Positions 7,783 through 22,435 of a DNA stretch of 64,000 nucleotides are shown in pieces (the first letter of the stretch is position 1; each line of letters starts with the position of its first letter). Below the pieces are notes generated by a model that saw only the letters and a program-made list of their open reading frames with translations, was not told where the DNA came from and made no database searches. Made by a program: the position numbers and the translations under genes. The stretch spans positions 5,146,001 through 5,210,000 of the forward strand of contig NZ_VFMJ01000001.1 of assembly GCF_006715005.1 (NCBI RefSeq), written 5' to 3'. The DNA comes from Serratia marcescens. GTDB taxonomy: Bacteria; Pseudomonadota; Gammaproteobacteria; Enterobacterales; Enterobacteriaceae.

Positions 7783-9237
7783 ATGTATAAGTTCGGTGTG
7801 GTTGGCGGCGGAGCCGCCGGGATCGCTTTTGCGTATAACTTTATAAAAAATAAGTCGGTTAATCATTGCAAAAGGCCGCTTTCCCTGACGGTGTTCGACA
7901 AGCAGGGCTTCAAGGGCGGAATGGCATACAGCAGCGATTTTGACAGCCATATATTAAATATGACGCCGGAAAATATGTCGGCGGATATTTTCGACGAAAC
8001 GCACTTCGTTGATTGGATCGCCATGCATTTCCCGCAGTTTTGCCAGGATCGTTATCCGCCGCGCTGGCTGTATCGGGAATATCTCGACTTTATTCGCGAC
8101 ATGACGATTTATATGGCGGCGGACAGCAACGTCGCGCTGAATTTCGTGACCGCCGAAGTGAATGCCATCGCGCCGCTAGAAGCCGGCTACCGGCTGACCA
8201 CCACCTGTGGCGGCGCCGAACAGATGAATGCGCTGGTGCTGTGTTCGGGGCACAACCCGCCGGAGTGTCTCTATCCGGTGGATGGCGTGATCGCTTATCA
8301 GGCCCACCAGGATCTGCCGCCGATCAACCCTTATTCGAGCATCGGCGTAATCGGCTGCAGCCTGACGGCGATCGATGCCATCGTTGAGCTGATGGAGCGC
8401 CTGGGGGCGACCGATATCTGCGCCCTGTCGCGCTCGGGCCTGTTCCCCAGCGTGCAGCCGGCGCTGATGCGTCCGCCGCCGGAGGCGTTTGTTGAGGCGC
8501 TACGGCGCTTTGTCGCCGGCAGCGATTTTATTGACGCGCATCAGCTGGTGCATGCGATCAATGCCGCGCTGGCGCGCCACTATCCGGGGCCGGAGCGGCT
8601 GACGGTGCTCTCGGCGCTGGGGGAAAGGCGCGATTGCTATCGCGATCTGGCAGACAGTCTCGATCGCGCGCGTTTTGCCCGGGAGCATATCTGCAGCTAT
8701 CTGGCGGCGATCCACCCGGCGGTGTGCGCCGCCTGGGTCAAGATGGATGCCAACAACCGGCAGGTCTTCATGCGCTTTTACAACTCCTCCTGGATGCGCA
8801 ATCGGCATGCCATGCCGCTCAAGAACGCCAGCAAGATCGTGGCGGCGCTGGAGAGCCAACGCCTGCGTGCCTGCGGCGGCCTGGTGGATATCAGTAAGGG
8901 GACGGACGGGTTTATTCTTCGTTGCCATGAGACGCGGGTGCATGCGCAGTATCTGTTCAACTGCACCACGCCTTCCTATCAACTGCCGCCCAACCGCCTG
9001 AGCCATCAGCTGCTGCAAGACGGGTTGGTGCAAGAGAACCTGTTCGGCGGTGTGAAGTGTAACCCGCACACGCTGAAAATCGCCGACCGACGCGGCCGTG
9101 AGCAGCATCTCTACTCGCTCGGCGCGCCCGCCAAGGGCGATCTGTTTTACACCTCGGCGATGGAATCCATCACGCGGGATATCAGCAAGATCGTGTTTAA
9201 CAACCCTATTTTCAACGCAAAGAAGGCTGAAGTATGA
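7783..9237 (+). CDS. FAD/NAD(P)-binding protein (PF13454-type), function unknown
   Basis: A protein of 484 aa. An N-terminal dinucleotide-binding fold has the glycine motif VGGGAAG at residues 7-13, then the GGMAYSSDFDSHILNMTPENM stretch typical of HI0933/PF13454-like flavoproteins. A second nucleotide-binding element (IGVIGCSLTAIDAI) lies near residues 186-199. The family is mostly uncharacterised, and some members belong to natural-product or amino-acid modification clusters. The ribosome site AAGGTGAT precedes the ATG. The stop overlaps the formyltransferase start by 4 bases (ATGA), so the two are probably translationally coupled and share a pathway. The first 200 bases are more AT-rich than the rest. 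The substrate cannot be assigned. Confidence 0.8.
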   Translation: MYKFGVVGGGAAGIAFAYNFIKNKSVNHCKRPLSLTVFDKQGFKGGMAYSSDFDSHILNMTPENMSADIFDETHFVDWIAMHFPQFCQDRYPPRWLYREYLDFIRDMTIYMAADSNVALNFVTAEVNAIAPLEAGYRLTTTCGGAEQMNALVLCSGHNPPECLYPVDGVIAYQAHQDLPPINPYSSIGVIGCSLTAIDAIVELMERLGATDICALSRSGLFPSVQPALMRPPPEAFVEALRRFVAGSDFIDAHQLVHAINAALARHYPGPERLTVLSALGERRDCYRDLADSLDRARFAREHICSYLAAIHPAVCAAWVKMDANNRQVFMRFYNSSWMRNRHAMPLKNASKIVAALESQRLRACGGLVDISKGTDGFILRCHETRVHAQYLFNCTTPSYQLPPNRLSHQLLQDGLVQENLFGGVKCNPHTLKIADRRGREQHLYSLGAPAKGDLFYTSAMESITRDISKIVFNNPIFNAKKAEV

Positions 9238-10115
9238 AAAACGTAGCGCTCTTTGTCGGCAACGACATTTTCTCCTGGCTGGTGTGTCAGGATCTGATCG
9301 CCGCTCTGAAGGACGAGTGTACCTTTACGGTGTATTTCCCCTTGGCGAAGAGCGCCGGGCGCACGCTGGAGCCGGCAGTTCGCCGCCTGGGGCTGTATGA
9401 GCGCGAAGTGCTGAACGATTTCGTGTTCCCGTTCGTGGGCCGCAACGCCGCCGCCTGCGACGGCGCCTATCAGTCGCCGGCCCTGTTCCTGGCCGCCGCC
9501 GGGGTAAAAGCACATCGCGTTCTCGACATCAACGACACCGCGTTTATCAGCAACCTGGGGCATATGGATGGGGTGATCTCCCTGCGCTGTTATCAGAAAT
9601 TCTCCGCCGACTATGTGCGCGCCTTCAGCCGACGCGGCAAGCTGCTGTGGAACCTGCATCCGGGGGATTTGCCGCGCTATCGCGGGGTGATGACGCTGTT
9701 CCGCGCGATGATGAACGGTGACAGAGACTGTGCGGTAACGCTGCATGAAATGGATGAACACTGGGACGCCGGCCCGGTGATCGCCCGTCTGCCCGCCGAG
9801 CTGCGTCACGACCTGTCGTTCCTGGAAAACATGATGCTGTTGGGCGTACAGAGCGGCGTTTTCCTGGCGCGTCAGCTGATGCGGGCGGAGCACAGCGAAG
9901 CGATAGCGGCGGAAAAGCAGGGCGATTCGCGCTATTGGGGCTTCCCGGACGCGCAGACGCTGGCGCAGGCGGAACAGGCGGGCATTGAGCTGGTGGATCA
10001 TGACGCCGTGCGCGAGCAGTATCTGGGGTTGTTCGTCGGCGATCGTTTCCACCCGCTGGCGGGGCAGTTCTGCGCCGGGTTCGACGACTTCGTGCGGGCG
10101 CACGGTCATGATTGA
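9234..10115 (+). CDS. N10-formyltetrahydrofolate-dependent-type formyltransferase domain protein
   Basis: A protein of 293 aa whose core carries the formyltransferase catalytic triad: Asn140 and His142 in LWNLHPGDLPRYRG, and Asp178 in HEMDEHWDAGPV. The triad spacing equals that of glycinamide ribonucleotide transformylase (Asn106, His108, Asp144). It should move a formyl group from 10-formyl-THF to an amine or hydroxylamine. It is not Fmt, PurN, PurU or ArnA, because the N-terminal ~100 residues and the C-terminus differ from those enzymes. It overlaps the flavoprotein gene by 4 bases and the exporter gene by 8 bases, a tight three-gene operon. Confidence 0.8.
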   Translation: MKNVALFVGNDIFSWLVCQDLIAALKDECTFTVYFPLAKSAGRTLEPAVRRLGLYEREVLNDFVFPFVGRNAAACDGAYQSPALFLAAAGVKAHRVLDINDTAFISNLGHMDGVISLRCYQKFSADYVRAFSRRGKLLWNLHPGDLPRYRGVMTLFRAMMNGDRDCAVTLHEMDEHWDAGPVIARLPAELRHDLSFLENMMLLGVQSGVFLARQLMRAEHSEAIAAEKQGDSRYWGFPDAQTLAQAEQAGIELVDHDAVREQYLGLFVGDRFHPLAGQFCAGFDDFVRAHGHD

Positions 10116-10933: not shown

Positions 10934-11344
10934 TTAACGGTGGTATTCGCCCGCCGCTTCCGGCTGGTACAGCAATTCCAGCACTTCAATCCGCGCTTCT
11001 TCACCGTTCGGCAATTGCCAGGAGATCTGCTTGCCGACGTGCATGCCGAGCAGCGCTGCACCCAGCGGCGCCATTACCGACAGCTGATCGTGGCTGTCTT
11101 TCAGCGATGCCGGGTAAACCAGCGTACGCACGTGCTCTTCATCGGTGTGCAGATCGCGAAAACGCACGCGGCTGTTCATGGTCACCACGTTGGCCGGCAT
11201 TTTCTCCGGCGGCAGGATTTCCGCGCGATCCAACTCGTCGTTCAGCGCGGCGGCGACGTCGGTGTTGGCAAAGGCCGGTTGTTCCAATAGCGCATCCAGG
11301 CGTTCCGCATCCAGCTCATTAATAGTAATGATGGGTTTGGTCAT
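10934..11344 (-). CDS. rnk: Rnk, nucleoside diphosphate kinase regulator (GreA/GreB C-domain family)
   Basis: A protein of 136 aa, the E. coli Rnk length. A short N-terminal coiled coil (residues 5-45) is followed by a FKBP-like GreA/B C-terminal domain with [10 protein letters not shown] and [14 protein letters not shown]. Rnk binds RNA polymerase without the tip acidic residues of GreA and influences nucleoside diphosphate kinase levels. It follows the structured leader described at 11345-11450. Confidence 0.93.
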
Positions 11345-11450
11345 TCCACTCTCCAGTCAAATCAAAGGGTGCCAGTCTGTGCACCCATAAATTCGGAAAA
11401 ACAACACAAAGCAACACCCCCGCGCCAGAGGAGCGGGGGTGTGGGTAATG
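11345..11450 (-). promoter_or_regulatory. Structured 5' leader of rnk
   Basis: On the minus strand the leader first forms a perfect 10-base stem (ACACCCCCGC/GCGGGGGTGT, 11414-11442) followed by a T-rich run, then a 6-base stem (GGGTGC/GCACCC, 11367-11386) just ahead of the rnk ribosome site. A conserved rnk leader with pseudoknot is described for gamma-proteobacteria; that this is a member is inferred from position and hairpins, not from alignment. The first hairpin plus T run could act as an attenuator. Confidence 0.5.
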
Positions 11451-11767
11451 TCGATTTGTCCTATTGATAGTAGGCGGTTGGGGCGAGAAAAGAAAGAGAT
11501 CCCGATCACGAAGGCTTTTATCGTCAATCGTGGCAAAAGAAACGGTTAGCCCGGTTATCTATTTGTTATCTCATTGACTTTTTCACCGCCACGCCGTTTT
11601 GCGAAATGGATCCCCGCGCGTCATTCGATTTCCACTTCGAACTGGAAAAAACCGGTCTACACAGAAAATCCTACCGGGGGTAGGGTAAAGACATCACAGA
11701 AAACGGGTTATTCAGGTGATGCGCTTTACGGCTTACTGATTAATGTAGGATCTAGGGGTACTGAAAA
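11451..11767. other. Intergenic region upstream of the PRD/SFCGS operon
   Basis: A 317-base AT-richer stretch with no convincing gene; a 65-codon frame from 11574 lacks a ribosome site and overlaps the next start. It must hold the rnk promoter (minus strand) and the promoter of the operon starting at 11768. A TTGACT lies near 11576 but has no good -10 partner. A CCTACC/GGTAGG inverted repeat is listed separately. Confidence 0.5.
11670..11684. promoter_or_regulatory. Inverted repeat, candidate operator or leader hairpin for the 11768 operon
   Basis: CCTACC and GGTAGG are perfect 6-base arms around a GGG centre, 84 bases upstream of the first gene. Position and symmetry fit a site for the locus regulator at 18685 or a small leader hairpin. 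No direct evidence of use is visible. Confidence 0.3.
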
Positions 11768-12115
11768 GTGAATGATGGATCTGCTTCGATAAAAGAAATT
11801 GAACAATCCGATGTCAGCGAAGCCGGAGCGATCGCCGCTCGGGTATTGGCGGATATTACCGCGATGCTGAATGCTGAGAATATTTATACCAATGCGGTGC
11901 AGCAACAGATGCTGGAATCGCATATTCGCGCCATGGTGCTGCGTTCAATAACCGGTGAGCCGTTGCCGGAGGTGGATAAATCGTTGTTCGACGAAATCTC
12001 TGCCGAATCCATGCAAATGGCGGAGCGCGTGGTGAATCAGTTTGACACATTGCCTATCGAAGAAGCCTATTTACTGTCAGTGCACTTCGAAGTGGCGAAA
12101 GATAATAACGCATAG
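11768..12115 (+). CDS. Stand-alone PRD (PTS regulation domain) protein
   Basis: A protein of 115 aa consisting of a single PRD-like helical domain. His52 in the LESHIRAMVLR segment and His106 in LLSVHFE sit where the two phosphorylatable histidines of PRDs normally lie. No DNA- or RNA-binding domain is present, so it cannot act alone as an antiterminator. It is first in an operon with the SFCGS and DUF4310-4312 genes, 36 bases before the next start. Inference: a phosphorylation-responsive partner of the transport proteins or of the PRD regulator at 18685. The first residues are acidic and poorly conserved-looking, so the start is uncertain. Confidence 0.75.
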   Translation: MNDGSASIKEIEQSDVSEAGAIAARVLADITAMLNAENIYTNAVQQQMLESHIRAMVLRSITGEPLPEVDKSLFDEISAESMQMAERVVNQFDTLPIEEAYLLSVHFEVAKDNNA

Positions 12116-12151
12116 CGGTTAACGCATCGATTTCAATCAGGAGAAAATACC

Positions 12152-12517
12152 ATGGGTCAAATTACCGTAGTGATCGGCGATCGTTTGGGCAAAGGGCAAA
12201 AAGTCGGCCAGGGCGTTGAAAACGCAGGCGGAAAAGCGGTGGTTATCCCCGGCGTGGCGGCAGATATGAAACTGGGCGACGTCATGAAAGCGGAAAACGC
12301 GCAGCTGGGCATCTCTTTTTGCGGCAGCGGCGGCGCCGGCGCGATTACCGCGCAAACCAAATACGGCTACAAAGCCAAATACGGCATGCGTTCGGTGGAA
12401 GAGGGCGTGACGGCAATTAACGAAGGCTGCAACGTGCTGGGTTTCGGCTTTATGGATAAGGAAGAGCTGGGCCAGAAACTGGTGGAAGCCTACGTCAAAA
12501 AACATGGCAATCCATAA
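12152..12517 (+). CDS. Glycine-rich SFCGS family protein, function unknown
   Basis: A protein of 121 aa named for its signature ISFCGSGGAGAITAQTKYG (Cys57). The N-terminus ITVVIGDRLGKGQKVGQGVENAGGKAVVIPG looks like a small alpha/beta domain. The Cys followed by a glycine/serine loop recalls the phosphocysteine loop of PTS EIIB domains; that is my inference, not an established assignment. It has a good ribosome site (CAGGAGAAAATACC). Its TAA overlaps the DUF4312 ATG by one base (TAATG), so the two are co-translated. Confidence 0.85.
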   Translation: MGQITVVIGDRLGKGQKVGQGVENAGGKAVVIPGVAADMKLGDVMKAENAQLGISFCGSGGAGAITAQTKYGYKAKYGMRSVEEGVTAINEGCNVLGFGFMDKEELGQKLVEAYVKKHGNP

Positions 12518-12813
12518 TGAAAGAGCAATATACCACATCGGTAAAGGTGGAGGGTAAAGGCGACAGCAAAGCGAAAGCTTTTGCTTCCGCCTTGGCTAAT
12601 GTGCAGGGTGCGGTATTAAAGTCCACCAACAATATTCTGCTGCGTATCGAGCCGCAGGACGTCAGCGTAGTGAAAGCGGAAGAGAAAATAACTAAAGAGA
12701 AATTTCTTTTCTTCTTTTTGCCGCGTGAAAGAAAGCGCTATGCCGTTTCTCTGGAAATAACCGTGAACGTAACCATTATCAATACCGAGAAGGTTGTCTT
12801 CGTCACGAAATAA
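12517..12813 (+). CDS. DUF4312 family protein, function unknown
   Basis: A small protein of 98 aa with no membrane segment. Alternating charged and hydrophobic residues (YTTSVKVEGKGDSKAKAFASALANVQ, and near the C-terminus YAVSLEITVNVTII) suggest a compact beta-alpha fold; a lysine- and phenylalanine-rich stretch (KEKFLFFFLPRERKR) lies around residues 59-74. It always appears to travel with the SFCGS, DUF4311 and DUF4310 genes (from memory of the family). It is translationally coupled to the SFCGS gene. The role is unknown; a cytoplasmic component of the transporter is likely. Confidence 0.82.
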   Translation: MKEQYTTSVKVEGKGDSKAKAFASALANVQGAVLKSTNNILLRIEPQDVSVVKAEEKITKEKFLFFFLPRERKRYAVSLEITVNVTIINTEKVVFVTK

Positions 12814-12843
12814 AAACGTTAGCATAAATGAAAGGGTATACTG

Positions 12844-13620
12844 ATGTTTTTAATCATCTTATTTAAATCGATTATTATCGGTGGGCTGGTGGGGGTCGGC
12901 GTAGGGGCCGGCGCCGCGCGCATGTTCCACGCACCGACAACACAGGGCATGGGGGCGTTTCGCACCCTGGGCGAGCTGAATTCCTGCGAGGGCGATCCGG
13001 CTTCCCACTTCTCATTCGGTCTGGGCTTCTTCTTCAACGCCTGGGCGTCTTCCGTGGCGGCGGGCTCCTTCACGCAGGACGTCGATCACCGCATCATCCC
13101 GCACTGGGGCGCGGCGGCCCTGATGGTCAAGAACCGCAATCTGGCGCAAACGCTGCACGATCCGAAAAAAATGGCCATCGCCTGCGGCATCATCGGCATG
13201 TTGGTAGTGGCGTTCCTCAATACCACCGCTTCCGCCGTGCCTGCCGCGCTGCAAGTCACCGCGATCAAGGTGCTGGTGCCGGCGGCCAACCTGCTGGTGA
13301 ACACCGTGATGCCGGTGATCTTCTGGCTGGCGGCGATCGACGCCGGGCGCCGCTCCGGCTTCTGGGGCACCATCTTCGGCGGCCTGGCGCAGCTGATCAT
13401 GGGCAACGCCGTACCGGGCCTGGTGCTGGGCATTCTGATCGGCAAAGGCGTGGAAGAGAGCGGCTGGAACAAGATCACCAAGATCATGATGGCGGTGATC
13501 GTGCTGCTGTTCGTGCTGAGCGGCTTCTTCCGCGGCTTCGACATGAAAGTTCTCGAGTCCTTCAGCCTCGGCGTGCCGGGCTGGCTGGACGCCATTCACA
13601 ACACCCTGAGCGGTAAATAA
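12844..13620 (+). CDS. DUF4311 family multi-pass membrane protein
   Basis: A protein of 258 aa with about five or six hydrophobic segments, starting at the N-terminus (FLIILFKSIIIGGLVGVGVG). Conserved-looking polar elements interrupt the membrane regions: FRTLGELNSCEGDPASHFSFG and the GNAVPGLVLGILIGKG re-entrant-like loop. The ribosome site AAAGGG precedes the ATG by 7 bases. With DUF4310 (11 bases downstream) it probably forms the membrane channel of an uncharacterised transporter. It has no motif of ABC permeases, MFS or standard PTS EIIC that I recognise. Confidence 0.85.
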   Translation: MFLIILFKSIIIGGLVGVGVGAGAARMFHAPTTQGMGAFRTLGELNSCEGDPASHFSFGLGFFFNAWASSVAAGSFTQDVDHRIIPHWGAAALMVKNRNLAQTLHDPKKMAIACGIIGMLVVAFLNTTASAVPAALQVTAIKVLVPAANLLVNTVMPVIFWLAAIDAGRRSGFWGTIFGGLAQLIMGNAVPGLVLGILIGKGVEESGWNKITKIMMAVIVLLFVLSGFFRGFDMKVLESFSLGVPGWLDAIHNTLSGK

Positions 13621-13631
13621 GGAGCGGGATG

Positions 13632-14282
13632 ATGGAAGAGCAAACCCAAAAAGGCTTCTGGTACGCCGACTGGTCATTCCCGATTTTTGTTGGCCTGCTG
13701 TCCTCCGGCGTGTTCGCCGGGACGCACATGTACTACCTGTACGGCATCGGCGCCTTTAACGAAGTGGCGTTCGTTTCCATGCTGCGGGCGGGGATGGATA
13801 CCGGCGTGTATGGCGCGGTGGCGGCGTTCGGCGCCAGCTTCCTGTTCGCGCGTATCATCGAAGGCTCGCTGGTGGGCATCCTGGACATCGGCGGCGCGAT
13901 CCAGACCGGCGTCGGGCTGGGCGTACCGGCGCTGCTTTTGGGGGCCGGCATCGTGTTCCCGGTTGCCAATTTCGCCGCTTCGCTGGCCACCGGCCTGATC
14001 ATCGGTCTGGCGATCGGTTACGTGATCATCCTGGCGCGCAAATTCACCATCAATCAAAGCAACTCCACCTATGGGGCGGACGTGATGATGGGGGCGGGCA
14101 ACTCCTCGGGCCGCTTCCTCGGGCCGTTGATCATCCTGTCGGCAATGACCGCCTCGATCCCGATCGGCATCGGTTCGCTGCTCGGCGCGCTGCTGTTCTA
14201 TATCTGGGGTAAACCGATCACCGGCGGAGCGATCCTCGGCGCGATGATCCTGGGGGCGATCTTCCCGGTAGCCATTTCTTAA
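13632..14282 (+). CDS. DUF4310 family multi-pass membrane protein
   Basis: A protein of 216 aa with about six hydrophobic segments rich in glycine and alanine, and a conserved-looking polar loop YGADVMMGAGNSSGRFLGP (residues about 150-168). An ATG at 13629 immediately precedes the ATG at 13632; the second has the better spacing (7 bases) to GGAG. It pairs with DUF4311 as the likely second membrane subunit. A GC-rich hairpin follows (14296-14322), separating the transport genes from the enzyme genes. Confidence 0.85.
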   Translation: MEEQTQKGFWYADWSFPIFVGLLSSGVFAGTHMYYLYGIGAFNEVAFVSMLRAGMDTGVYGAVAAFGASFLFARIIEGSLVGILDIGGAIQTGVGLGVPALLLGAGIVFPVANFAASLATGLIIGLAIGYVIILARKFTINQSNSTYGADVMMGAGNSSGRFLGPLIILSAMTASIPIGIGSLLGALLFYIWGKPITGGAILGAMILGAIFPVAIS

Positions 14283-14295
14283 GAGGCCTGCGCCA

Positions 14296-14322
14296 GGCGC
14301 CGCCCGATGCTGCGGCGGCGCC
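14296..14322 (+). promoter_or_regulatory. Intercistronic stem-loop between transport and enzyme genes
   Basis: A perfect 9-base stem (GGCGCCGCC/GGCGGCGCC) with a 9-base loop in the 63-base gap between DUF4310 and the amidohydrolase. There is no T run. It may stabilise the upstream mRNA or attenuate transcription, giving the membrane genes and the enzymes different expression. Confidence 0.45.
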
Positions 14323-14345
14323 CGGGCTAACAGGAGCAATGCGGT

Positions 14346-15485
14346 ATGTATGACTTAGTAATCAGAGGCGCCAAACTGGCGGACGATACGCTGATCGATC
14401 TGGCGGTGAAAGACGGCAAAATAGCCTCGGTGGGGCGGTTGGCGGCGGACGTCAGCGCCGTTCGCCAACTGGATCTGGCGGGCAACTGCCGCCTGAGTGC
14501 CGGTTGGATCGATGCGCACGTGCACTGCTATCCCGACTCGCCGATTTACCATGACGAGCCGGATCGGGTCGGCGTCGCCAGCGGCGTCACCAGCGTGGTC
14601 GATGCCGGCAGCACCGGCGCCGACGATATCGACGCTTTTTATCAACTGACGCGCAGCGCCAAAACCAACGTTTTCGCCTTCCTCAACATCTCGCGTATCG
14701 GCCTGCTGCGGCAGAACGAGCTGGCGGAGTTGACGGACATCGACAAGCGCGAGGCCGGCCAGGCCATCGCCAACCACCCCGGCTTTATCATCGGCATCAA
14801 GGCGCGCATGAGCAGCAGCGTAGTGGGCAAGAACGGCACCCGACCGCTGGTATTGGCCAAAGAGATCCAGCAGGAAAATCGCCAATTGCCGCTGATGGTG
14901 CATATCGGCAACAACCCGCCGAATCTGGACGAGATCGCCGATCTGCTGACCCGTGGCGACATCATCACCCACTGCTACAACGGTAAACCGAACCGCATTC
15001 TGACGCCGGCGGGCACGCTGCGCGAGTCTATCCAGCGCGCGCTGCGGCGCGGCGTGTTGCTCGACGTGGGGCACGGCACCGCCAGCTTCAGCTTCGAGGT
15101 GGCGCGCCAGGCGATCACGCTGGGTATTTTGCCGCACACCATCAGCTCCGATATTTACTGCCGCAACCGCATGAACGGGCCGGTGCATAGCCTGGCGACG
15201 GTGATGTCCAAATTCTTCAGCGTCGGCCTGACGCTGCCGCAGGTGATCGCCTGCGTGACGGAGAACGCCGCGTCGGCGCTGCAGCTGAGCGGAAAAGGGC
15301 GGCTGGAGCCGGGCTATGACGCCGACTTCACGCTGTTTGAACTGCGCCGGGAACCGCAGGTCTTCGCCGACGCCGAAGGGCAAACCGCCGAGGGCGAACA
15401 GCTGTTGGTGCCGCTGGCCGCCGTGGTGGCCGGGGAAATCCTATTAACCGAACAAGGGGGGGCAAGCCATGTCTTCGATTTATGA
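14346..15485 (+). CDS. Amidohydrolase/deacetylase family metallohydrolase (dihydroorotase-like)
   Basis: A protein of 379 aa. The amidohydrolase metal site is visible: His58 and His60 in DAHVH, the carboxylatable Lys152 in GIKARM, His186 in MVHIGN, His209 in ITHCYNG and Asp269 in ISSDIY. These predict a binuclear metal centre that hydrolyses an amide. Annotated relatives are called adenine deaminase or dihydroorotase, but the operon partners (DgaE, DgaF) suggest an N-deacylase acting on a modified amino-sugar acid. The ribosome site CAGGAGCAATGCGGT is near the start. Its 3' end overlaps dgaE by 17 bases. Confidence 0.85.
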   Translation: MYDLVIRGAKLADDTLIDLAVKDGKIASVGRLAADVSAVRQLDLAGNCRLSAGWIDAHVHCYPDSPIYHDEPDRVGVASGVTSVVDAGSTGADDIDAFYQLTRSAKTNVFAFLNISRIGLLRQNELAELTDIDKREAGQAIANHPGFIIGIKARMSSSVVGKNGTRPLVLAKEIQQENRQLPLMVHIGNNPPNLDEIADLLTRGDIITHCYNGKPNRILTPAGTLRESIQRALRRGVLLDVGHGTASFSFEVARQAITLGILPHTISSDIYCRNRMNGPVHSLATVMSKFFSVGLTLPQVIACVTENAASALQLSGKGRLEPGYDADFTLFELRREPQVFADAEGQTAEGEQLLVPLAAVVAGEILLTEQGGASHVFDL

Positions 15486-16587
15486 AAAATACGGTTTGAA
15501 GCAGGTGATCAACACCTCCGGCCGCATGACCATTCTCGGCGTTTCTACGCCGCGCCAGGACGTGATCGACGCCGTTGATTACGGTCTGAACCACTATTTC
15601 GAAATCAAGGATCTGGTCAATAAGACCGGCGCCTACATCGCCGATCTGCTCAACGTGGAGGACGCGGTGATCGTTTCCTGCGCCTCGGCGGGCATCGCCC
15701 AGTCGGTGGCTGCCGTGATCGTCAAAGATAACGCCAATCTGCTGGTGAACCTGCACTCGGCGCCGGTGACCGTGCCGCGCGAGATCGTGCTGCCGCGCGG
15801 CCACAACGTCAACTTCGGCGCGCCGGTGGACACCATGGTGGCGCTGGGCGGCGGCAAGGTGGTGGAGGCGGGTTACGCCAACGAATGTTCGCCGGAGCAG
15901 ATTGAAGCCTGCATCACGCCGCAGACCGCGGCGATCCTGTACGTCAAATCGCACCACTGCGTGCAGAAAAGCATTTTGTCCGTCGAACAGGCGGCGGTCG
16001 TGGCGCGCAAGCATAACCTGCCGCTGATCGTCGACGCCGCGGCGGAAGAAGATCTGATGTGTTACTACCAGATGGGGGCCGATCTGGTGATCTACAGCGG
16101 CGCTAAAGCCATCGAGGGGCCGACCAGCGGTCTCGTGATCGGCAAGAAACAGTACGTCGAGTGGGTGAAGCTGCAATCCGGCGGCATTGGCCGGGCGATG
16201 AAGGTCGGCAAAGAGGGCATCCTCGGCCTGACGCAGGCGATTGAAAGCTATCTGACGCTTGAGAAAACCACCGGGCAACAGATGGTGGCGCGGATGACGC
16301 CGTTCCTCGACAGCCTCAATACCCTGACCGGCGTCAGCGCCAAGACCGTCTGGGACAGCGCCGGCCGCGATATCGCCCGCGCCGAGATTACCTTCGACGA
16401 AGCGGTGTTGGGGCGGTCGACCTATGACATCGTCCAGGCGCTGAAAACCGGCGATATTGCCATCTACTTCCGCGGCTACAAGGCCAACGAGGGCAAGATT
16501 GAGGTTGATGTGCGCAGCGTCGACGAGCGGCAACTGATGACCGTCTTTACCTGTATCAAAAACCTGTTTACGGAGAAACAAGCATGA
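15469..16587 (+). CDS. dgaE: DgaE family PLP-dependent ammonia lyase
   Basis: A protein of 372 aa of the SelA-like PLP fold. In the known Salmonella pathway DgaE converts D-glucosaminate-6-phosphate to 2-keto-3-deoxygluconate-6-phosphate and ammonia. The PLP lysine is probably Lys213 in YSGAKAIEGPTSG, and the pocket Asp is in LIVDAAAEED. It starts inside the preceding gene (17-base overlap, with a run of G as ribosome site) and overlaps dgaF by 4 bases, so the three enzymes are co-translated. The true substrate may be a different amino acid sugar, since the dgaABCD PTS genes are absent. Confidence 0.85.
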   Translation: MSSIYEKYGLKQVINTSGRMTILGVSTPRQDVIDAVDYGLNHYFEIKDLVNKTGAYIADLLNVEDAVIVSCASAGIAQSVAAVIVKDNANLLVNLHSAPVTVPREIVLPRGHNVNFGAPVDTMVALGGGKVVEAGYANECSPEQIEACITPQTAAILYVKSHHCVQKSILSVEQAAVVARKHNLPLIVDAAAEEDLMCYYQMGADLVIYSGAKAIEGPTSGLVIGKKQYVEWVKLQSGGIGRAMKVGKEGILGLTQAIESYLTLEKTTGQQMVARMTPFLDSLNTLTGVSAKTVWDSAGRDIARAEITFDEAVLGRSTYDIVQALKTGDIAIYFRGYKANEGKIEVDVRSVDERQLMTVFTCIKNLFTEKQA

Positions 16588-17324
16588 AGCTGCAGCCTAA
16601 CTACTATCGCGACCGCGTCTGCCTGAACGTGCTGGCCGGCTCCAAAGCCAACGCGCAGGACATCTACGCCGCGGCGGAAGGCCATGTGCTGGTGGGCGTG
16701 CTCTCCAAGAACTACCCGGACGTCGACAGCGCGGTGACCGACATGCTGCGCTATGCGCGCCTGATCGAAAACGCACTGTCGGTTGGCCTGGGCGCCGGCG
16801 ATCCGAAACAGTCGGCGATGGTCAGCCTGATCGCTCAGCAGGTGCAGCCGCAGCACGTTAACCAGGTGTTTACCGGCGTCGGCGCCAGCCGCGCGCTGCT
16901 GGGCCAGAACGACAGCGTGGTCAACGGCCTGGTATCGCCGACCGGCCGCGTCGGCTGGGTGAAGATTTCTACCGGCCCCTTGAGCGCCGCGGCGCCTGAC
17001 GGCATCGTGCCGGTGGAAACCGCCATCGCTTTGCTGAAGGACATGGGCGGCAGCTCCATCAAGTATTTCCCGATGGGCGGCCTGAAATGCAAGGACGAAT
17101 ACCAGTACGTCGCCAAGGCCTGCGCCGAACATGACTTTATGCTGGAGCCGACCGGCGGCATCGATCTGGAGAACTACGAGCCGATCGTCGAGATCGCGCT
17201 GGCGGCCGGCGTGAAACGGGTGATCCCGCATATCTATAGCTCGATCATCGACGCCGCCAGCGGCGACACGCGTCCGCAGGACGTGAAAACCCTGCTGGCG
17301 ATGACCAAAAAGCTGGTGAGTTGA
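16584..17324 (+). CDS. dgaF: DgaF family 2-keto-3-deoxy-phosphogluconate-type aldolase
   Basis: A protein of 246 aa of the class I aldolase family annotated KDGP aldolase/DgaF. The segment SSIKYFPMGGLKCKDEY (about residues 153-169) contains the probable Schiff-base lysine, followed by EPTGGIDLENY. In the D-glucosaminate route it splits KDGP into pyruvate and glyceraldehyde-3-phosphate. The ATG overlaps the dgaE stop (ATGA). It ends the enzyme operon; 94 bases separate it from the lactonase gene. Confidence 0.85.
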   Translation: MKLQPNYYRDRVCLNVLAGSKANAQDIYAAAEGHVLVGVLSKNYPDVDSAVTDMLRYARLIENALSVGLGAGDPKQSAMVSLIAQQVQPQHVNQVFTGVGASRALLGQNDSVVNGLVSPTGRVGWVKISTGPLSAAAPDGIVPVETAIALLKDMGGSSIKYFPMGGLKCKDEYQYVAKACAEHDFMLEPTGGIDLENYEPIVEIALAAGVKRVIPHIYSSIIDAASGDTRPQDVKTLLAMTKKLVS

Positions 17325-17418
17325 GCGCACAATGGGATGAGGTAAACGCTGGGAGGCGAAGGTTTTCCCGTGGCGCGGCATGCCGCGCCGTTACCTATAC
17401 TCAGGTCTGAGGATTACT

Positions 17419-18633
17419 ATGCGAAACTGGCAGGCTCCAACCCGACGCACCGCGTTGTTCCTGGCGCTGCTGGCCGTGACCGGCCCGGCGCTGCATGCTG
17501 AGGATGCAATGAATTCCACGTCATCTCATTTCGCCTATATCGGCACCTACAATCCCAACGGCGAAGGCGTTTACCGGGTGCAGGTCGATCCGGCCAGCGG
17601 TGCGCTGAGCCACGCCACGCTGGTCAGCAACGTGCCGAATCCGGCGCAGCTGACGTTGGGCGCTGATGGCAAGACGCTGTATGTCGCCAGCGAAGTGGCC
17701 GATTTCAACGGCGGCAAACACGGCGGCATCACCGCTTACCGGGTCAATCCGGCCGACGGCGGCCTGACGCAGCTTAACCAGGTGGATTCGCAGGGGGCGG
17801 GGCCGGTGTATCTCTCCTCGACGCCGGACGGGCGGCATTTGCTGGTGGCCAACTACGTCAGCGGCAGCGTGGCGGCTTTCCCGATCGAAGCGGACGGCAG
17901 CCTGGGCGCCGCCAGCTCGGTGCAGCAACAGCAGGGCCCGGCGGGCGCGGCCAAACCGGCGGCGGCGGTGAACGGCAGCTTCGCCATCAGCGATCACAAT
18001 GGCCCGCATGCCCATATGATCGCCAGCGATCCGAGCGGCAAGTTCGTGTTCTCCACCGATCTGGGGTTGGATCGCATCTACCAATGGCGCTTTGACGCGG
18101 CGAGCGGCCGGCTGACGCCGAACGATCCGCCGTGGATCGCCGCCTCTTCCGCCGGCGCGGGTCCGCGTCACTTTGTGTTCCATCCGGACGGCGAAACCGT
18201 GCTGCTGGTGAACGAAGAGGCCTCGACGTTGACCAGCTACCGTTTTGATCGCCAAAAAGGTACTCTGAAACAACTGCATGCGGTTTCCGCGCTGCCCGCC
18301 GACTATCAGGGCACCAGCTTCGCTTCGGGGCTGGCGCTCAGCAAGAACGGCGACACGCTGTACGTCGCCAACCGGCTGCATAACAGCATTGCCCAGTTCA
18401 GCGTGGGCGCCGGCGGTGAGTTGAAACCGGTGGCGGAAACCTGGACGCGTGGCGATTATCCGCGTTCGCTGGCGCTGAGCCCGGATGGCCGCTATCTGTA
18501 TGCGTTGAACCAGCGCAGCGATAACGTCACCCGCTTCAGCGTAAACCCGACGGATGGCAAACTCAGCTTTGTGGGCGGCTATCTGCCGATCGGCAGCCCC
18601 TCGCAAATGGCGTTCCTGCCGCCGCCGAAGTAA
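17419..18633 (+). CDS. Seven-bladed beta-propeller lactonase (6-phosphogluconolactonase-like)
   Basis: A protein of 404 aa from the ATG at 17419 (GAGG 8 bases upstream). Repeated blade signatures such as GTYNPNGEGVYRV, NYVSGSVAAFPI, NGPHAHMI, PRHFVFHPDG and YPRSLALSPDGRYLYA match the YbhE/Pgl lactonase family. Unlike cytosolic Pgl, it has an N-terminal segment with twin arginines (PTRRTALFLALLAV) and a cleavage-like ALHA, suggesting export through Tat or Sec. A second ATG at 17509 with its own GAGG would give a cytosolic form. It probably opens a sugar lactone to the aldonic acid, in line with the neighbouring sugar-acid genes. Confidence 0.8.
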   Translation: MRNWQAPTRRTALFLALLAVTGPALHAEDAMNSTSSHFAYIGTYNPNGEGVYRVQVDPASGALSHATLVSNVPNPAQLTLGADGKTLYVASEVADFNGGKHGGITAYRVNPADGGLTQLNQVDSQGAGPVYLSSTPDGRHLLVANYVSGSVAAFPIEADGSLGAASSVQQQQGPAGAAKPAAAVNGSFAISDHNGPHAHMIASDPSGKFVFSTDLGLDRIYQWRFDAASGRLTPNDPPWIAASSAGAGPRHFVFHPDGETVLLVNEEASTLTSYRFDRQKGTLKQLHAVSALPADYQGTSFASGLALSKNGDTLYVANRLHNSIAQFSVGAGGELKPVAETWTRGDYPRSLALSPDGRYLYALNQRSDNVTRFSVNPTDGKLSFVGGYLPIGSPSQMAFLPPPK

Positions 18634-18640
18634 CCCGTGG

Positions 18641-18662
18641 CCCGCCCGGTTCACCGGGCGGG
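18641..18662 (+). terminator. Hairpin after the lactonase gene
   Basis: CCCGCCCGGT and the following ACCGGGCGGG form a near-perfect stem with a very small loop, 7 bases after the lactonase stop. Only TTG follows, so termination would be partial and read-through into the regulator gene is possible. Confidence 0.4.
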
Positions 18663-18684
18663 TTGCCTGATTGACGGACACAGA

Positions 18685-20601
18685 ATGGTGCGATTTCCTT
18701 ACCCGCGTTTGGCTTACTTGTTCGATGCTTTGCAAACCGAGACTTTGCCGCAGGATGAGCTGGCGAAGCGTTTCGCCGTGTCTACCCGCACGGTGCGGGC
18801 GGATATCACCGCGCTGAACGAGATCCTGGATAAATACGGCGCGCGTTTCGTGCATAACCGCGGGGCCGGCTATCGCCTGCAGGTCGATAACGCCGCGCTG
18901 TTCAGCGCCCTGCAGCATCAGGAGCGCCGCAAGCACGCCACCCCGCGCAGCGCGCAGGAGCGGGTGCATTATCTGCTGGTGCGTTTTTTGACCTCAGCCT
19001 TTTCCCTCAAACTGGAGGATCTGGCCGACGAGTGGTTCGTCAGCCGCGGCACGCTGCAAAACGACATGGCTGAGGTGAGAGAGCGCCTGGCGCACTATCA
19101 ATTGACGATCGAAACCAAGCCGCGCTACGGCATGAAGCTGTTCGGCGCCGAGATGGCGATCCGCGCCTGCCTCACCGATCTGCTGTTCCAGCTGCAGCTG
19201 GCCGATGCCGAGAACCCGCTGCTCAACAACGAGATCCTGCTGCAGCCGCAGGTAGCGGCGTTCGCCGGATTGCTGCACCCGCTGCTGTCGCAATATGCCA
19301 TTCGCCTGACCGACGAGGGCGAGCAGTACCTGATCTTCTACTGCGCGGTGGCGCTGCGGCGCATTAACGACGGCTATCCGCTGCCGGACTTCGAGGTGGA
19401 GGACGGCGACGACGCGGTGCGTCAGGTGTCGACCCGCCTGGCGTCGGAGCTGCGTGCGGCCTCCGGCAAAGAGATCTCGATGGCCGAAGAGGCCTATCTG
19501 CGGGTCAACATCGCCGCGCGGCGCGTGCAGGACGTGCAGCCGACCGAGATCAACGCCGACGATGAAGAAGCGCTGGTGGACTACATCCTGTCCTATATCA
19601 ACGCGCACTATAACTACAACCTGCAGGGCGACGAGCAGCTGCGGGCCGATCTGCTCACCCATATCAAGACCATGATTACGCGGGTGAAGTACCAGATCAA
19701 TATCCCCAATCCGCTGTTGGCCAATATCAAGCAGCACTATCCGATGGCTTACGACGTGACGCTGGCGGCGGTCTCCAGCTGGGGCAAATACACCCCCTAT
19801 ACCCTGAGCGAGAACGAGATAGGCTATCTGGTGCTGCACATCGGCGTGGGGCTGGAGCGGCATTACAACATCGGTTATGAACGCCACCCGCAGGTGATGC
19901 TGGTGTGCGATACCGGCAACTCGACGGTGCGCATGATCCAGGCGCAGATTGCGCGCAAGTATCCGCAGCTGGTGATGACGCGCATCGTCTCACTGCGCGA
20001 TTACGAGATGCTTGCACATATCGACGAAGACTTCGTGATTTCCAACGCCCGCATCGGCGAAAAGAACAAGCCGGTGGTGGTGATGTCGCCGTTCCCGACC
20101 GATTACCAACTGGAGCAATTGGGCAAGCTGGTGCTGGTGGATCGCACCCGACCGTACATGCTGGAGAAGTTCTTCGACGCCGAGCATTTCATGGTGCTCA
20201 ACGAGCCGCTGACGCAGGCGGAGCTGTTCAGCCGGGTGTGCGGCCAGCTGGAGCGGGAGGGGTATGTCGGCGCGGACTTTTATCCGTCGCTGGTCGAACG
20301 CGAGGCGATCGTCTCCACGCTGCTGGGCGAGGGCATCGCGCTGCCGCACTCGCTGGGGCTGCTGGCCAAAAAAACCGTGGTGGTGACGCTGCTGGCGCCG
20401 CAGGGCGTCGCCTGGGGTGAAGGCGAGGTCGCGCACGTGATTTTCCTGCTGGCGATCAGCAAGAGCGACTATGAAGAGGCGATGGCGATCTACGAGCTGT
20501 TCGTTACCTTCGTGCGTGAACGCTCAATGAGCCGCCTGTTGGGCAGCGACAGCTTCGACAGCTTTAAAGCGGTGGCGCTGGACTGCCTGAGCCGAAGTTG
20601 A
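18685..20601 (+). CDS. PRD- and PTS-domain transcriptional regulator (BglG/MtlR/LicR type)
   Basis: A protein of 638 aa: a DeoR-like HTH (residues about 10-60, AKRFAVSTRTVRADITALNE), a second HTH (90-150, ADEWFVSRGTLQNDM), two PRDs (about 185-400), an EIIB-like domain with Cys408 in VMLVCDTGNSTV, and an EIIA domain with His555 in GIALPHSLG. This layout defines the LicR/MtlR class of DNA-binding activators whose activity is set by PTS phosphorylation. I chose the ATG at 18685 because it begins the HTH domain; the longer frame from 18637 starts in the preceding hairpin. It probably controls the 11768-18633 genes in response to the transported sugar. Confidence 0.88.
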   Translation: MVRFPYPRLAYLFDALQTETLPQDELAKRFAVSTRTVRADITALNEILDKYGARFVHNRGAGYRLQVDNAALFSALQHQERRKHATPRSAQERVHYLLVRFLTSAFSLKLEDLADEWFVSRGTLQNDMAEVRERLAHYQLTIETKPRYGMKLFGAEMAIRACLTDLLFQLQLADAENPLLNNEILLQPQVAAFAGLLHPLLSQYAIRLTDEGEQYLIFYCAVALRRINDGYPLPDFEVEDGDDAVRQVSTRLASELRAASGKEISMAEEAYLRVNIAARRVQDVQPTEINADDEEALVDYILSYINAHYNYNLQGDEQLRADLLTHIKTMITRVKYQINIPNPLLANIKQHYPMAYDVTLAAVSSWGKYTPYTLSENEIGYLVLHIGVGLERHYNIGYERHPQVMLVCDTGNSTVRMIQAQIARKYPQLVMTRIVSLRDYEMLAHIDEDFVISNARIGEKNKPVVVMSPFPTDYQLEQLGKLVLVDRTRPYMLEKFFDAEHFMVLNEPLTQAELFSRVCGQLEREGYVGADFYPSLVEREAIVSTLLGEGIALPHSLGLLAKKTVVVTLLAPQGVAWGEGEVAHVIFLLAISKSDYEEAMAIYELFVTFVRERSMSRLLGSDSFDSFKAVALDCLSRS

Positions 20602-20644
20602 GTGGGAGATGATATGGGGAGGCGCAAGGGCGCGCCCTTAGCGG

Positions 20645-20917
20645 CTAATCTTCATCAAACCCGGAGTTGAACAGCTCGACCACCGCCGCCAGCGCGTTGA
20701 CTTCGTCGGGGCCGGTCGCTTCGACTTCGATATGCCGGCCCTGGGCAGAGTCCAGCATCAGCAGCGCGATGACGCTGCTGGCTTCGGCCTCGGTGCCGCT
20801 TTCGTTGCGCAGCATCACTTCGGCGTCGAAGCTTTGCACCAACTCGAACAGTTTCATCGCCGGGCGCGCGTGCATGCCCAGCTTGTTTTTGATTTCAACC
20901 GTCTGTTTGACCGTCAT
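20645..20917 (-). CDS. ptsO: NPr, HPr-like phosphocarrier of the nitrogen PTS
   Basis: A protein of 90 aa, as in E. coli NPr. The phosphorylated His16 lies in [14 protein letters not shown]. NPr passes phosphate from PtsP (EI-Ntr) to PtsN. The start overlaps the end of rapZ by 4 bases. It is the last gene of the rpoN cluster on the minus strand. Confidence 0.95.
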
Positions 20918-21768
20918 TGTTTACGCTTTTCCAGCGTGCGGTGGCGCGACTGCACGTTCTTGCCGCGCGAGCGGAAGTAATCGGCCAGCTGTTCCGCCAC
21001 GTACACCGAGCGGTGCTTACCGCCGGTACAGCCGATGGCGACCGTCAGGTAGCTGCGGTTGTTGGTTTCCAGCATCGGCAACCATTGTTCCAGGTAGCTG
21101 CGGGTCTGGTAGATGAAGTTGTGCACTTCGGTATGGCGATCGAGGAACGACGCGACCGGCTTGTCCAGACCGGTCATCGGCCGCAGCTTCGGATCCCAGT
21201 GCGGGTTCGGCAGGAAGCGCACGTCGAACACGTAGTCGGCGTCGATCGGAATGCCGTGCTTGAAGCCGAAGGATTCGAACACCATGGTCAGCTCACGCTC
21301 ACGTTTGCCCAGCAAGCGGGTGCGCAGCATTTCGGCCAGTTCGTGCACCGACATTTCCGAGGTATCGATAATCAGGTCAGCCCGCGAGCGTAGCGGTTCG
21401 AGCAGATCGCTCTCTTCGTCGATGGCGCTTTCCAGCGACAGGTTTTTGCTGGAGAGCGGGTGCAGGCGGCGGGTGTCGCTGTAACGGCGGATCAGCGTGT
21501 TGCGATCGGCGTCGAGGAACAGCAACTGCGGCGAGAAGCTGTCCGGCAGCTGAGTCATCGCGTATTCGAATACTTCCGGCGATTCCGGCATGTTGCGCAC
21601 GTCGATGCTGACCGCCGCGGAGATATTGCGTTCCGCCAGCGTGTTGGCGAGCTGCGGCAGCAGCACCACCGGCAGGTTGTCAACGCAGTAAAAACCCATG
21701 TCTTCCAGCGCCCGCAAGGCGACGGATTTTCCGGAACCGGAACGGCCGCTGACAATCATCAGCACCAT
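20914..21768 (-). CDS. rapZ: RapZ, RNase adapter protein controlling GlmZ decay
   Basis: A protein of 284 aa, the family length. Walker A is GRSGSGKS near the N-terminus, and the C-terminal domain has the [11 protein letters not shown] motif and a basic [19 protein letters not shown] tail used for RNA binding. In E. coli it senses glucosamine-6-phosphate and delivers the sRNA GlmZ to RNase E. It sits between ptsN (129-base gap) and ptsO (4-base overlap), as in other enterobacteria. Confidence 0.95.
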
Positions 21769-21897
21769 GTGGCAACTCCCCTGGCATCGCGGCGGCGTTC
21801 ATCGCCACCGGTGGAAACTTTGTTATTCCGGCCGCAGCCGGATCCATCATCGTGAAACAGTAGCGTTATCCGGGCTGGAAGTCACGCCGGCCGGGCA

Positions 21898-22359
21898 TCA
21901 CTCGGTGATGATTTGGTAAAGTTCTTCGTCGCTCTGCGCGGCTCGCAGGCGGCGGCATACGGTCTTGTCGGCCAGGCGTTTGGCGACCAGCGACAGGGTA
22001 TGCAAATGGGTTTTGCACTGATCGGCAGGCACCAGCAGCGCGAACAACAGGTCGACCGGCTGGTTGTCGATAGCGTCGAAAGCGATGGGTTGGTCGAGAC
22101 GGATAAACACGCCAACGGCCCGCAGTGTGTCCTCTTCCAGTTTGCCGTGGGGAATGGCGATACCGTTGCCGATACCGGTGCTGCCCATGCGCTCCCGGGT
22201 GAGAACCGCGTCAAACACCACCTGCGAAGGCAGATTGAGCTGTTTGGCGGCCAGTTCGCTGATAATTTCCAAAGCCCGCTTCTTGCTGGTGCAGTGTACC
22301 GAGCTTTTGGTGCACTCGATGTTTAACACCGAGCTTAATTGCATATATTCGTTGTTCAT
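21898..22359 (-). CDS. ptsN: PtsN, EIIA-Ntr of the nitrogen PTS
   Basis: A protein of 153 aa; the phospho-acceptor is His71 in GIGNGIAIPHGKLEED. In its unphosphorylated form it regulates potassium uptake and other targets. It is about 10 residues shorter than E. coli PtsN at the C-terminus, which ends at YQIITE. I chose the ATG at 22359 because it gives the family N-terminus (MQLSSVLNIEC soon after the start) and GAAG is upstream; the frame is open to 22401. Confidence 0.93.
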   Translation of the reverse strand: MNNEYMQLSSVLNIECTKSSVHCTSKKRALEIISELAAKQLNLPSQVVFDAVLTRERMGSTGIGNGIAIPHGKLEEDTLRAVGVFIRLDQPIAFDAIDNQPVDLLFALLVPADQCKTHLHTLSLVAKRLADKTVCRRLRAAQSDEELYQIITE

Positions 22360-22435
22360 CTCATCTTCACTTAAAACCGCGCCGCCGGGCGCACCCGGCA
22401 AGGCGGTTTTTCGTCGGTTTTAACCCTGATTACCG

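Follow-up and report, generated by a model that had tools for sequence, protein, structure and literature searches.

A conserved Enterobacterales operon joining the SFCGS, DUF4312, DUF4311 and DUF4310 families to predicted enzymes of amino-sugar acid degradation

The 64,000-nucleotide stretch of Serratia marcescens DNA analysed here (contig NZ_VFMJ01000001.1; referred to as the window), from a Serratia-type genome, carries a tight operon of eight genes, all on the + strand (Table 1), encoding a lone PRD protein, four proteins of families without known function (SFCGS, DUF4312, DUF4311 and DUF4310), a deacylase-type amidohydrolase, a pyridoxal phosphate (PLP)-dependent ammonia lyase of the DgaE family and a DgaF-family aldolase of the 2-keto-3-deoxy-6-phosphogluconate (KDPG) type. 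The operon probably takes up and degrades an acylated amino-sugar acid, e.g., an oxidised chitin sugar. The explanation in its entirety, i.e., import and degradation of an N-acyl-2-amino-2-deoxy-aldonic acid, with N-acetyl-D-glucosaminate (GlcNAc1A) as the likeliest candidate, has in our estimate about an even chance of being correct.

From the observed gene content, conservation and module swaps we infer transport and its substrate, the acyl group, the location of a lactonase encoded downstream and the point of phosphorylation as follows. Where present, the lactonase would act in the periplasm and open a lactone of the substrate. Uptake would be brought about by a module of membrane proteins (DUF4311, DUF4310), soluble proteins (SFCGS, DUF4312) and the lone PRD protein, after which the amidohydrolase would strip the acyl group. 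The DgaE-type lyase may then convert (6-phospho)glucosaminate to 2-keto-3-deoxygluconate(-6-phosphate) (KDG(-6-P)) with release of ammonia, after which pyruvate and glyceraldehyde-3-phosphate would be formed by the DgaF-type aldolase. A regulator with PRD, EIIB-like and EIIA portions would couple expression to the phosphotransferase system (PTS).

Gene content and conservation of the operon

The eight genes are separated by gaps of 8–63 bases or overlap by 1, 17 and 4 bases; the lactonase gene starts 55 bases after dgaF and the regulator gene 3 bases after the lactonase gene. The genes named in an initial annotation of positions 11768..18633 are present in the order given there and on the + strand, as judged from Pfam and NCBIfam matches, and the overlaps and catalytic residues described there were found again. 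Its "seven tightly spaced genes" are indeed tightly spaced, but eight genes precede the lactonase, which the annotation had left out despite its position within that interval. The PTS-responsive regulator said to end the locus is present, but lies outside the interval and extends to position 20601. The absence of PTS EII and kinase genes applies to separate genes in the operon, but the regulator itself contains an EIIA domain together with an EIIB-like Cys loop. Among the ten open reading frames (ORFs) scanned, none belongs to the families of a DgaABCD-type PTS permease.

Table 1 Genes of the operon and of the adjoining lactonase and regulator
Coordinates	Strand	Predicted product	Length (amino acids)	Basis
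11768..12115	+	Lone PRD protein, EF_0829 family	115	TIGR03582 (131 bits, cut-off 69)
12152..12517	+	SFCGS protein, possible soluble partner	121	PF14272, TIGR03577
12517..12813	+	DUF4312 protein, soluble	98	PF14189, TIGR03578
12844..13620	+	DUF4311 membrane protein	258	PF14188, TIGR03580; hydropathy
13629..14282	+	DUF4310 membrane protein	217	PF14187, TIGR03579; hydropathy
14346..15485	+	Amidohydrolase/deacetylase-family metallohydrolase, EF_0837 family		TIGR03583 (538 bits)
15469..16587	+	DgaE-family PLP ammonia lyase		TIGR01437 (593 bits)
16584..17324	+	DgaF-family KDPG-type aldolase		PF07071, TIGR03581, NF047796
17380..18633	+	7-bladed lactonase, signal-peptide-like N-terminus		PF10282
18637..20601	+	PTS-type transcriptional regulator (helix-turn-helix, PRD, EIIB-like loop, EIIA)		Pfam HTH_11, Mga, PRD, PTS_EIIA_2

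From 469 DUF4310 relatives in genome contigs, the best 80 by DUF4310 similarity were kept, all of them from Enterobacterales. All eight genes are present in 80/80 of these loci and the regulator in 79, the remaining locus (L064) ending before the regulator. Likewise, 12/12 divergent loci, whose DUF4310 proteins are 74–89 % identical to that of the window, contain all eight genes and the regulator. Since the set recurs in all kept loci, it represents more than a chance association; co-occurrence of the four families with sugar-acid enzymes had been set beforehand as a check on the initial annotation.

The nearest named relatives of the window copy are from Serratia. Within the window's genus, 11 of 13 genomes (its own counted) contain DUF4310, and the two without it are reduced in size (1.9 and 1.5 Mb). 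At family level, DUF4310 was detected in 115 of the 246 genomes sampled, and in a phylum sample in 12 of 398 (every one in the window's family). In a class sample (n = 274 genomes) only the window's own genome was positive. Records of a plasmid collection contain DUF4310 in Klebsiella (2), Bartonella (2), Enterococcus faecalis (1) and Aeromonas caviae (1, truncated); those of Klebsiella and Bartonella likewise have the full set. No relatives were found in viral contigs, nor any near DNA match in Escherichia coli genomes. The A. caviae copy (NZ_AP026896) is decayed by an internal deletion: a single frame at 8950–9561 of locus L015 opens as DUF4310 and closes as DgaF, the deacylase and DgaE being missing. 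In two further genomes (G822 and G696) fragmented DUF4310 genes, one with an internal stop, represent probable decayed copies.

In Bacillota, the three enzymes occur in other or additional company, as seen in one plasmid-collection record each of E. faecalis, Priestia and Niallia. In Priestia, genes for a sugar kinase, a GntR regulator and a gluconate:H+ symporter come after those for amidohydrolase, DgaE and DgaF; in Niallia, the three enzymes are accompanied by a lactose-type EIIC, a MupG-type protein, a kinase and a GntR-type regulator (the latter assigned by reading alone). The Niallia EIIC and MupG-type protein are 59 and 57 % identical to their E. faecalis counterparts, and the kinase is 75 % identical to that of Priestia. 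The DUF module was found in neither the Priestia nor the Niallia record. Because these two place known transporters beside the same enzymes, the DUF module sits where a transporter would be expected. Homologues of the kinases, EIIC, MupG-type proteins and symporter of the three Bacillota were detected in none of the 80 + 12 loci, flanks of up to 10 kb per side included. In E. faecalis (locus L014, 10791–13523) and Niallia (locus L108, 4308–6998), the EIIC and MupG-family protein next to the enzymes hint that a phosphorylated glycoside serves as upstream substrate there. The E. faecalis copy has no lactonase match.

Enzymes, substrate and known pathways

The motif residues of the amidohydrolase (H58/H60, K152, H186, H209 and D269) are in place. 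Its relatives among solved structures (8wzy, 2ics, 2ogj, 8je0) carry the names dihydroorotase, adenine deaminase and amidase, which need not reflect function, and the operon's copy is the sole member of this deacylase family above cut-off in the window's own genome. The DgaE protein has its motif residues H162/H163 and K213 and is a relative of the solved structures 7lc0/7lce; the SelA model detects two proteins in the window's own genome, i.e., the DgaE of the operon and one far closer to SelA itself. DgaF reaches 385.6 bits with NF047796 (cut-off 300) and has 3m0z and 3lm7 as solved relatives. The reactions of DgaE and DgaF were worked out in Salmonella (PMC9529869). Besides the His pair, the DgaE protein of the window keeps the counterparts of Arg301, Arg332 and Arg346, which are proposed to be phosphate-binding in the D-glucosaminate-6-phosphate ammonia lyase of Salmonella (PMC9529869).

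A full-length lactonase is encoded between DgaF and the regulator in 51 of the 80 loci, 47 of them with a signal-like start; a lactonase was also found in 1 of the 12 divergent loci. Judging from this start, called by a simple sequence pattern, the lactonase is probably periplasmic; translation may in fact begin at a later ATG. Such an enzyme would match an aldonic acid formed initially as a lactone. A lactonase remnant is present at locus L058. In the regulator, His342 and His401 (PRD) and Cys424 (EIIB-like loop) are conserved in all, and His571 (EIIA) in 99 %, of 81 aligned sequences. Translations interrupted by stops (2 of the lactonase, 3 of the regulator) are excluded from these alignments.

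The likeliest substrate is GlcNAc1A, a compound released from chitin by lytic polysaccharide monooxygenases (LPMOs; PMC9537276, PMC12017989). In the dga system of Salmonella, uptake of D-glucosaminate by the DgaABCD PTS is followed by DgaE and DgaF (PMC9529869). The operon has a homologous lyase and aldolase, and the last two reactions are probably shared; however, DgaABCD-type genes are absent from it, deacylase, lactonase and DUF module are present, and its lyase remains under the equivalog cut-off. The marine ong pathway (PMC9537276, PMC12017989) follows the same logic of deacylation, deamination and formation of KDG(-6-P), and its symporter and kinase resemble the Priestia variant. It employs the D-aminoacylase-like OngB, the fold-type III PLP enzyme OngC and an SSS symporter, whereas the operon has an EF_0837-type deacylase, a SelA-like lyase and the DUF module, with no kinase or symporter among the scanned ORFs. 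A study of chitin utilization in Aeromonas that sought OngB and OngC reports only distant or no matches (PMC11653859).

The same seven families (TIGR03577–03583) make up an NCBIfam cluster of adjacent genes (EF_0829–EF_0839 / AHA_3910–3917, the latter from Aeromonas), and all score above cut-off here. NCBIfam gives these families the names of hypotheticals; in E. faecalis, the cluster differs by the added EIIC, MupG and kinase. EF0839 of E. faecalis is mentioned as a divergent eda-like enzyme with a possible tie to amino-sugar metabolism (PMC7701990), and dgaEF are listed as duplicated in this organism (PMC7396535). The term "undescribed" in the initial annotation holds for the function of the module in the literature searched (mostly outside subscription journals), where no functional paper was found among the matches listed, but not for the cluster itself, already named by NCBIfam as conserved hypotheticals.

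The uptake module and the point of phosphorylation

Judged by hydropathy, every copy combines two membrane partners with two soluble ones. The lone PRD protein has no DNA-binding domain, and its His52 and His106 are identical in 85/85 aligned sequences; Cys57 of SFCGS is invariant in 96/96 (near-duplicates included in both cases). No His or Cys is conserved in the DUF4312 alignment, and the best match of this protein among solved structures reaches only E 0.059. For DUF4310 and DUF4311, no relative was found among solved chains, and Pfam scans with 18 members of each family (E up to 5) returned no EIIC family; the best other Pfam match of DUF4311 (DUF2232, a membrane family, E 0.0069 at best) is not convincing. 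An origin of DUF4310 and DUF4311 as duplicates of each other was not supported, the score being reached in 12 of 100 shuffles.

SFCGS appears weakly RpiB/DUF2620-like and not EIIB-like. Pfam LacAB_rpiB was matched in 16 of 18 SFCGS members (best E 0.0027; 15.9 bits, under the cut-off of 24.7) and DUF2620 in 7 of 18 (best E 0.0024), while NCBIfam RPI_actino reached E 5e-4 (19.9 bits, under the cut-off of 168). Profile comparison with hhalign gave p 0.0026 and a probability of 11.5 % for RpiB, a score reached in 1 of 200 column shuffles, and p 0.0015 and 16.9 % for DUF2620 (0 of 200 shuffles). Implausible families score alike in the same Pfam scan (Cecropin, 0.0032; DUF1685, 0.0049), but RpiB and DUF2620 stand out from these because of the shuffle test and a recurring alignment of the Cys loop: the SFCGS Cys aligns with the C-G-[ST]-G loop of RpiB, and with C-[GN]-[ST]-G across RpiB and DUF2620. 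We take this loop to be the active-site loop of RpiB. The likeness to RpiB/LacAB isomerases thus lies in this loop and in the strand/helix order read from the SFCGS sequence, whereas every curated cut-off is missed. No similarity was detected to the PTS_IIB, glucitol EIIB and sorbose EIIB profiles (PF02302, PF03612, PF03830), the scores being reached by 179, 128 and 25 of 200 shuffles, and SFCGS as an EIIB was rejected with respect to these three families.

With regard to phosphorylation, the Bartonella plasmid copy contains a gene for an HPr-EI fusion (8047–10062, L013) after the regulator gene, with the phospho-His motifs of both HPr and EI present, and thereby hints at phosphotransfer; the one relative of this fusion examined (Caballeronia, 55 % identity) is located beside ptsG. 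A type VI secretion gene adjoins the Bartonella fusion. No EIIA match was obtained for the regulator of E. faecalis. Canonical KdgK was found above cut-off in 67 of the 70 module-positive genomes (out of 115) included in this test, the window's own among them. One of the other three has a KdgK match of 349 bits, below cut-off (G777), and two (G754 and G796, the latter 94 % complete) have no recognisable KdgK and a full operon. If the pathway runs via KDPG, these two need another phosphorylation step.

Several observations weigh against uptake and degradation of GlcNAc1A by the operon. With 373.7 bits, DgaE stays under the cut-off (600) of the D-glucosaminate-6-phosphate ammonia lyase equivalog NF047797. 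Its Arg residues also occur in Priestia and Niallia, whose records include a kinase; being retained beside kinases too, they are silent on when phosphorylation occurs and were rejected as a test for a phosphorylated substrate. The lactonase is missing from many loci with otherwise similar operons. LPMO genes occur in 29 of the 115 genomes with the module and in 20 of the 131 without it (odds ratio 1.87, p = 0.056, kinship uncorrected), and because of this weak co-occurrence chitin and LPMOs are not established as source of the substrate. Since E. faecalis combines the DUF module with an ordinary EIIC, a MupG-type protein and a kinase, the replacement of transporters is not clean. A transporter fold for DUF4310/DUF4311 is backed by no solved or Pfam family, and the AlphaFold2 model of DUF4311 (49 sequences) is unusable (mean predicted local distance difference test, 50.6; predicted TM-score, 0.40). 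The weak LPMO link and the DgaE score, together with the lactose-type EIIC and MupG-family protein suggesting a phosphorylated glycoside in E. faecalis and Niallia, would be consistent with a substrate other than GlcNAc1A, either a different N-acyl amino-sugar acid or a glycoside with such an acid in it. However, the DgaE and DgaF families indicate a glucosaminate-type skeleton and the lactonase an aldonic acid, and another substrate is regarded as conceivable, though somewhat doubtful.

As to the mode of uptake, the module could be a phosphotransferase-type importer, in which phosphate would pass from HPr via the lone PRD protein or the EIIA domain of the regulator to Cys57 of SFCGS and on to the substrate in DUF4311/DUF4310, directly yielding the 6-phospho acid. 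The HPr-EI fusion in Bartonella and its relative beside ptsG, the PTS-type regulator, the invariant His and Cys residues of PRD and SFCGS, the lack of kinase homologues in all 92 loci and the two KdgK-free genomes argue for this mode, and in part, indirectly, also for the possible new phosphotransfer system envisaged in the initial annotation. Yet KdgK is present in most genomes tested and one of the exceptions is incomplete, the fusion could serve the regulator alone, SFCGS is unlike the three EIIB families, DUF4312 lacks a conserved His, the E. faecalis regulator lacks an EIIA match, and no EIIC similarity is apparent while E. faecalis has an ordinary EIIC and kinase besides. Both this phosphate route and, more generally, phosphorylation of the substrate by uptake itself are considered rather unlikely. 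A non-phosphorylating (e.g., ion-coupled) transporter, with SFCGS acting as RpiB-fold isomerase or epimerase and a housekeeping kinase such as KdgK acting later as in the marine GlcNAc1A pathway, would agree with the RpiB-like scores and Cys-loop alignment, with the prevalence of KdgK and with the symporter and kinase described for P. prydzensis (PMC9537276) and found in Priestia. This is likewise rather unlikely, given that the RpiB scores and hhalign probability are low, that implausible families reach similar Pfam E-values, that the known pathway needs no isomerase step and that an aldolase, but not a kinase, is encoded in the operon. Finally, DUF4310/DUF4311 might form a membrane sensor or enzyme complex feeding the PRD protein and the regulator, the substrate entering otherwise; the shared transcription unit of these two, the separate EIIC of E. 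faecalis and the lack of a recognised transporter fold would suit this, but Enterobacterales copies would otherwise be without transporter and other bacteria substitute known transporters, rendering such a role improbable. For import by the module, and for the N-acyl sugar acid proposed by the initial annotation, linkage to deacylase, DgaE and DgaF and the transporter swaps in two Bacillota records provide support; both we continue to infer.

The yhf parallel, neighbouring genes and implications

The likeness to DUF2620 led to the yhf operon of E. coli K-12 (yhfY-yhfU-yhfT with php and yhfS; L176, 5936–13345). YhfY is homologous to the lone PRD protein (E 1.6e-6, below the family cut-off; hhalign p 9e-7), with the first PRD His kept and the second not (three sequences aligned), and DUF2620 shares a similar Cys loop with SFCGS. 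Here, too, a membrane protein and enzymes of the amidohydrolase superfamily and PLP type are neighbours, making up a comparable gene set without known function, whereas DUF4312 is missing and the enzymes are different ones. Cetobacterium has a yhf-type order of YhfZ, PRD, DUF2620, YhfT, amidase, phosphotriesterase-related protein and PLP enzyme. Using yhf profiles built on three sequences each, YhfT showed no similarity to DUF4310 or DUF4311 (scores reached by 24 and 22 of 100 shuffles), and YhfT as a fused DUF4311-DUF4310 is unsupported by this test.

The ORFs directly downstream of the regulator (20645–22401) resemble npr, rapZ and ptsN. In the A. caviae record (locus L015, 11585–12744) the regulator likewise adjoins genes presumed to be npr and rapZ, and five further loci have a short HPr-like match downstream. 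An Rfam scan of positions 11300–20700 yielded no match at gathering scores.

If the proposed uptake and degradation of an N-acyl amino-sugar acid is true, four families without known function would gain a role, and oxidised amino sugars would have a second route beside the marine GlcNAc1A pathway. Going further, one may speculate, at low probability, on a new class of importers dependent on phosphoenolpyruvate, in which the lone PRD protein would replace EIIA as phosphohistidine carrier and phosphate would run from HPr via PRD to Cys57 of an RpiB-like SFCGS and then to the N-acyl sugar acid brought in by DUF4311/DUF4310; yhfY-yhfU-yhfT of E. coli would represent a second branch with another membrane protein and substrate. 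A PRD as phosphocarrier would be a novel concept in PTS biology, one that the yhf parallel in E. coli makes testable in a laboratory strain.

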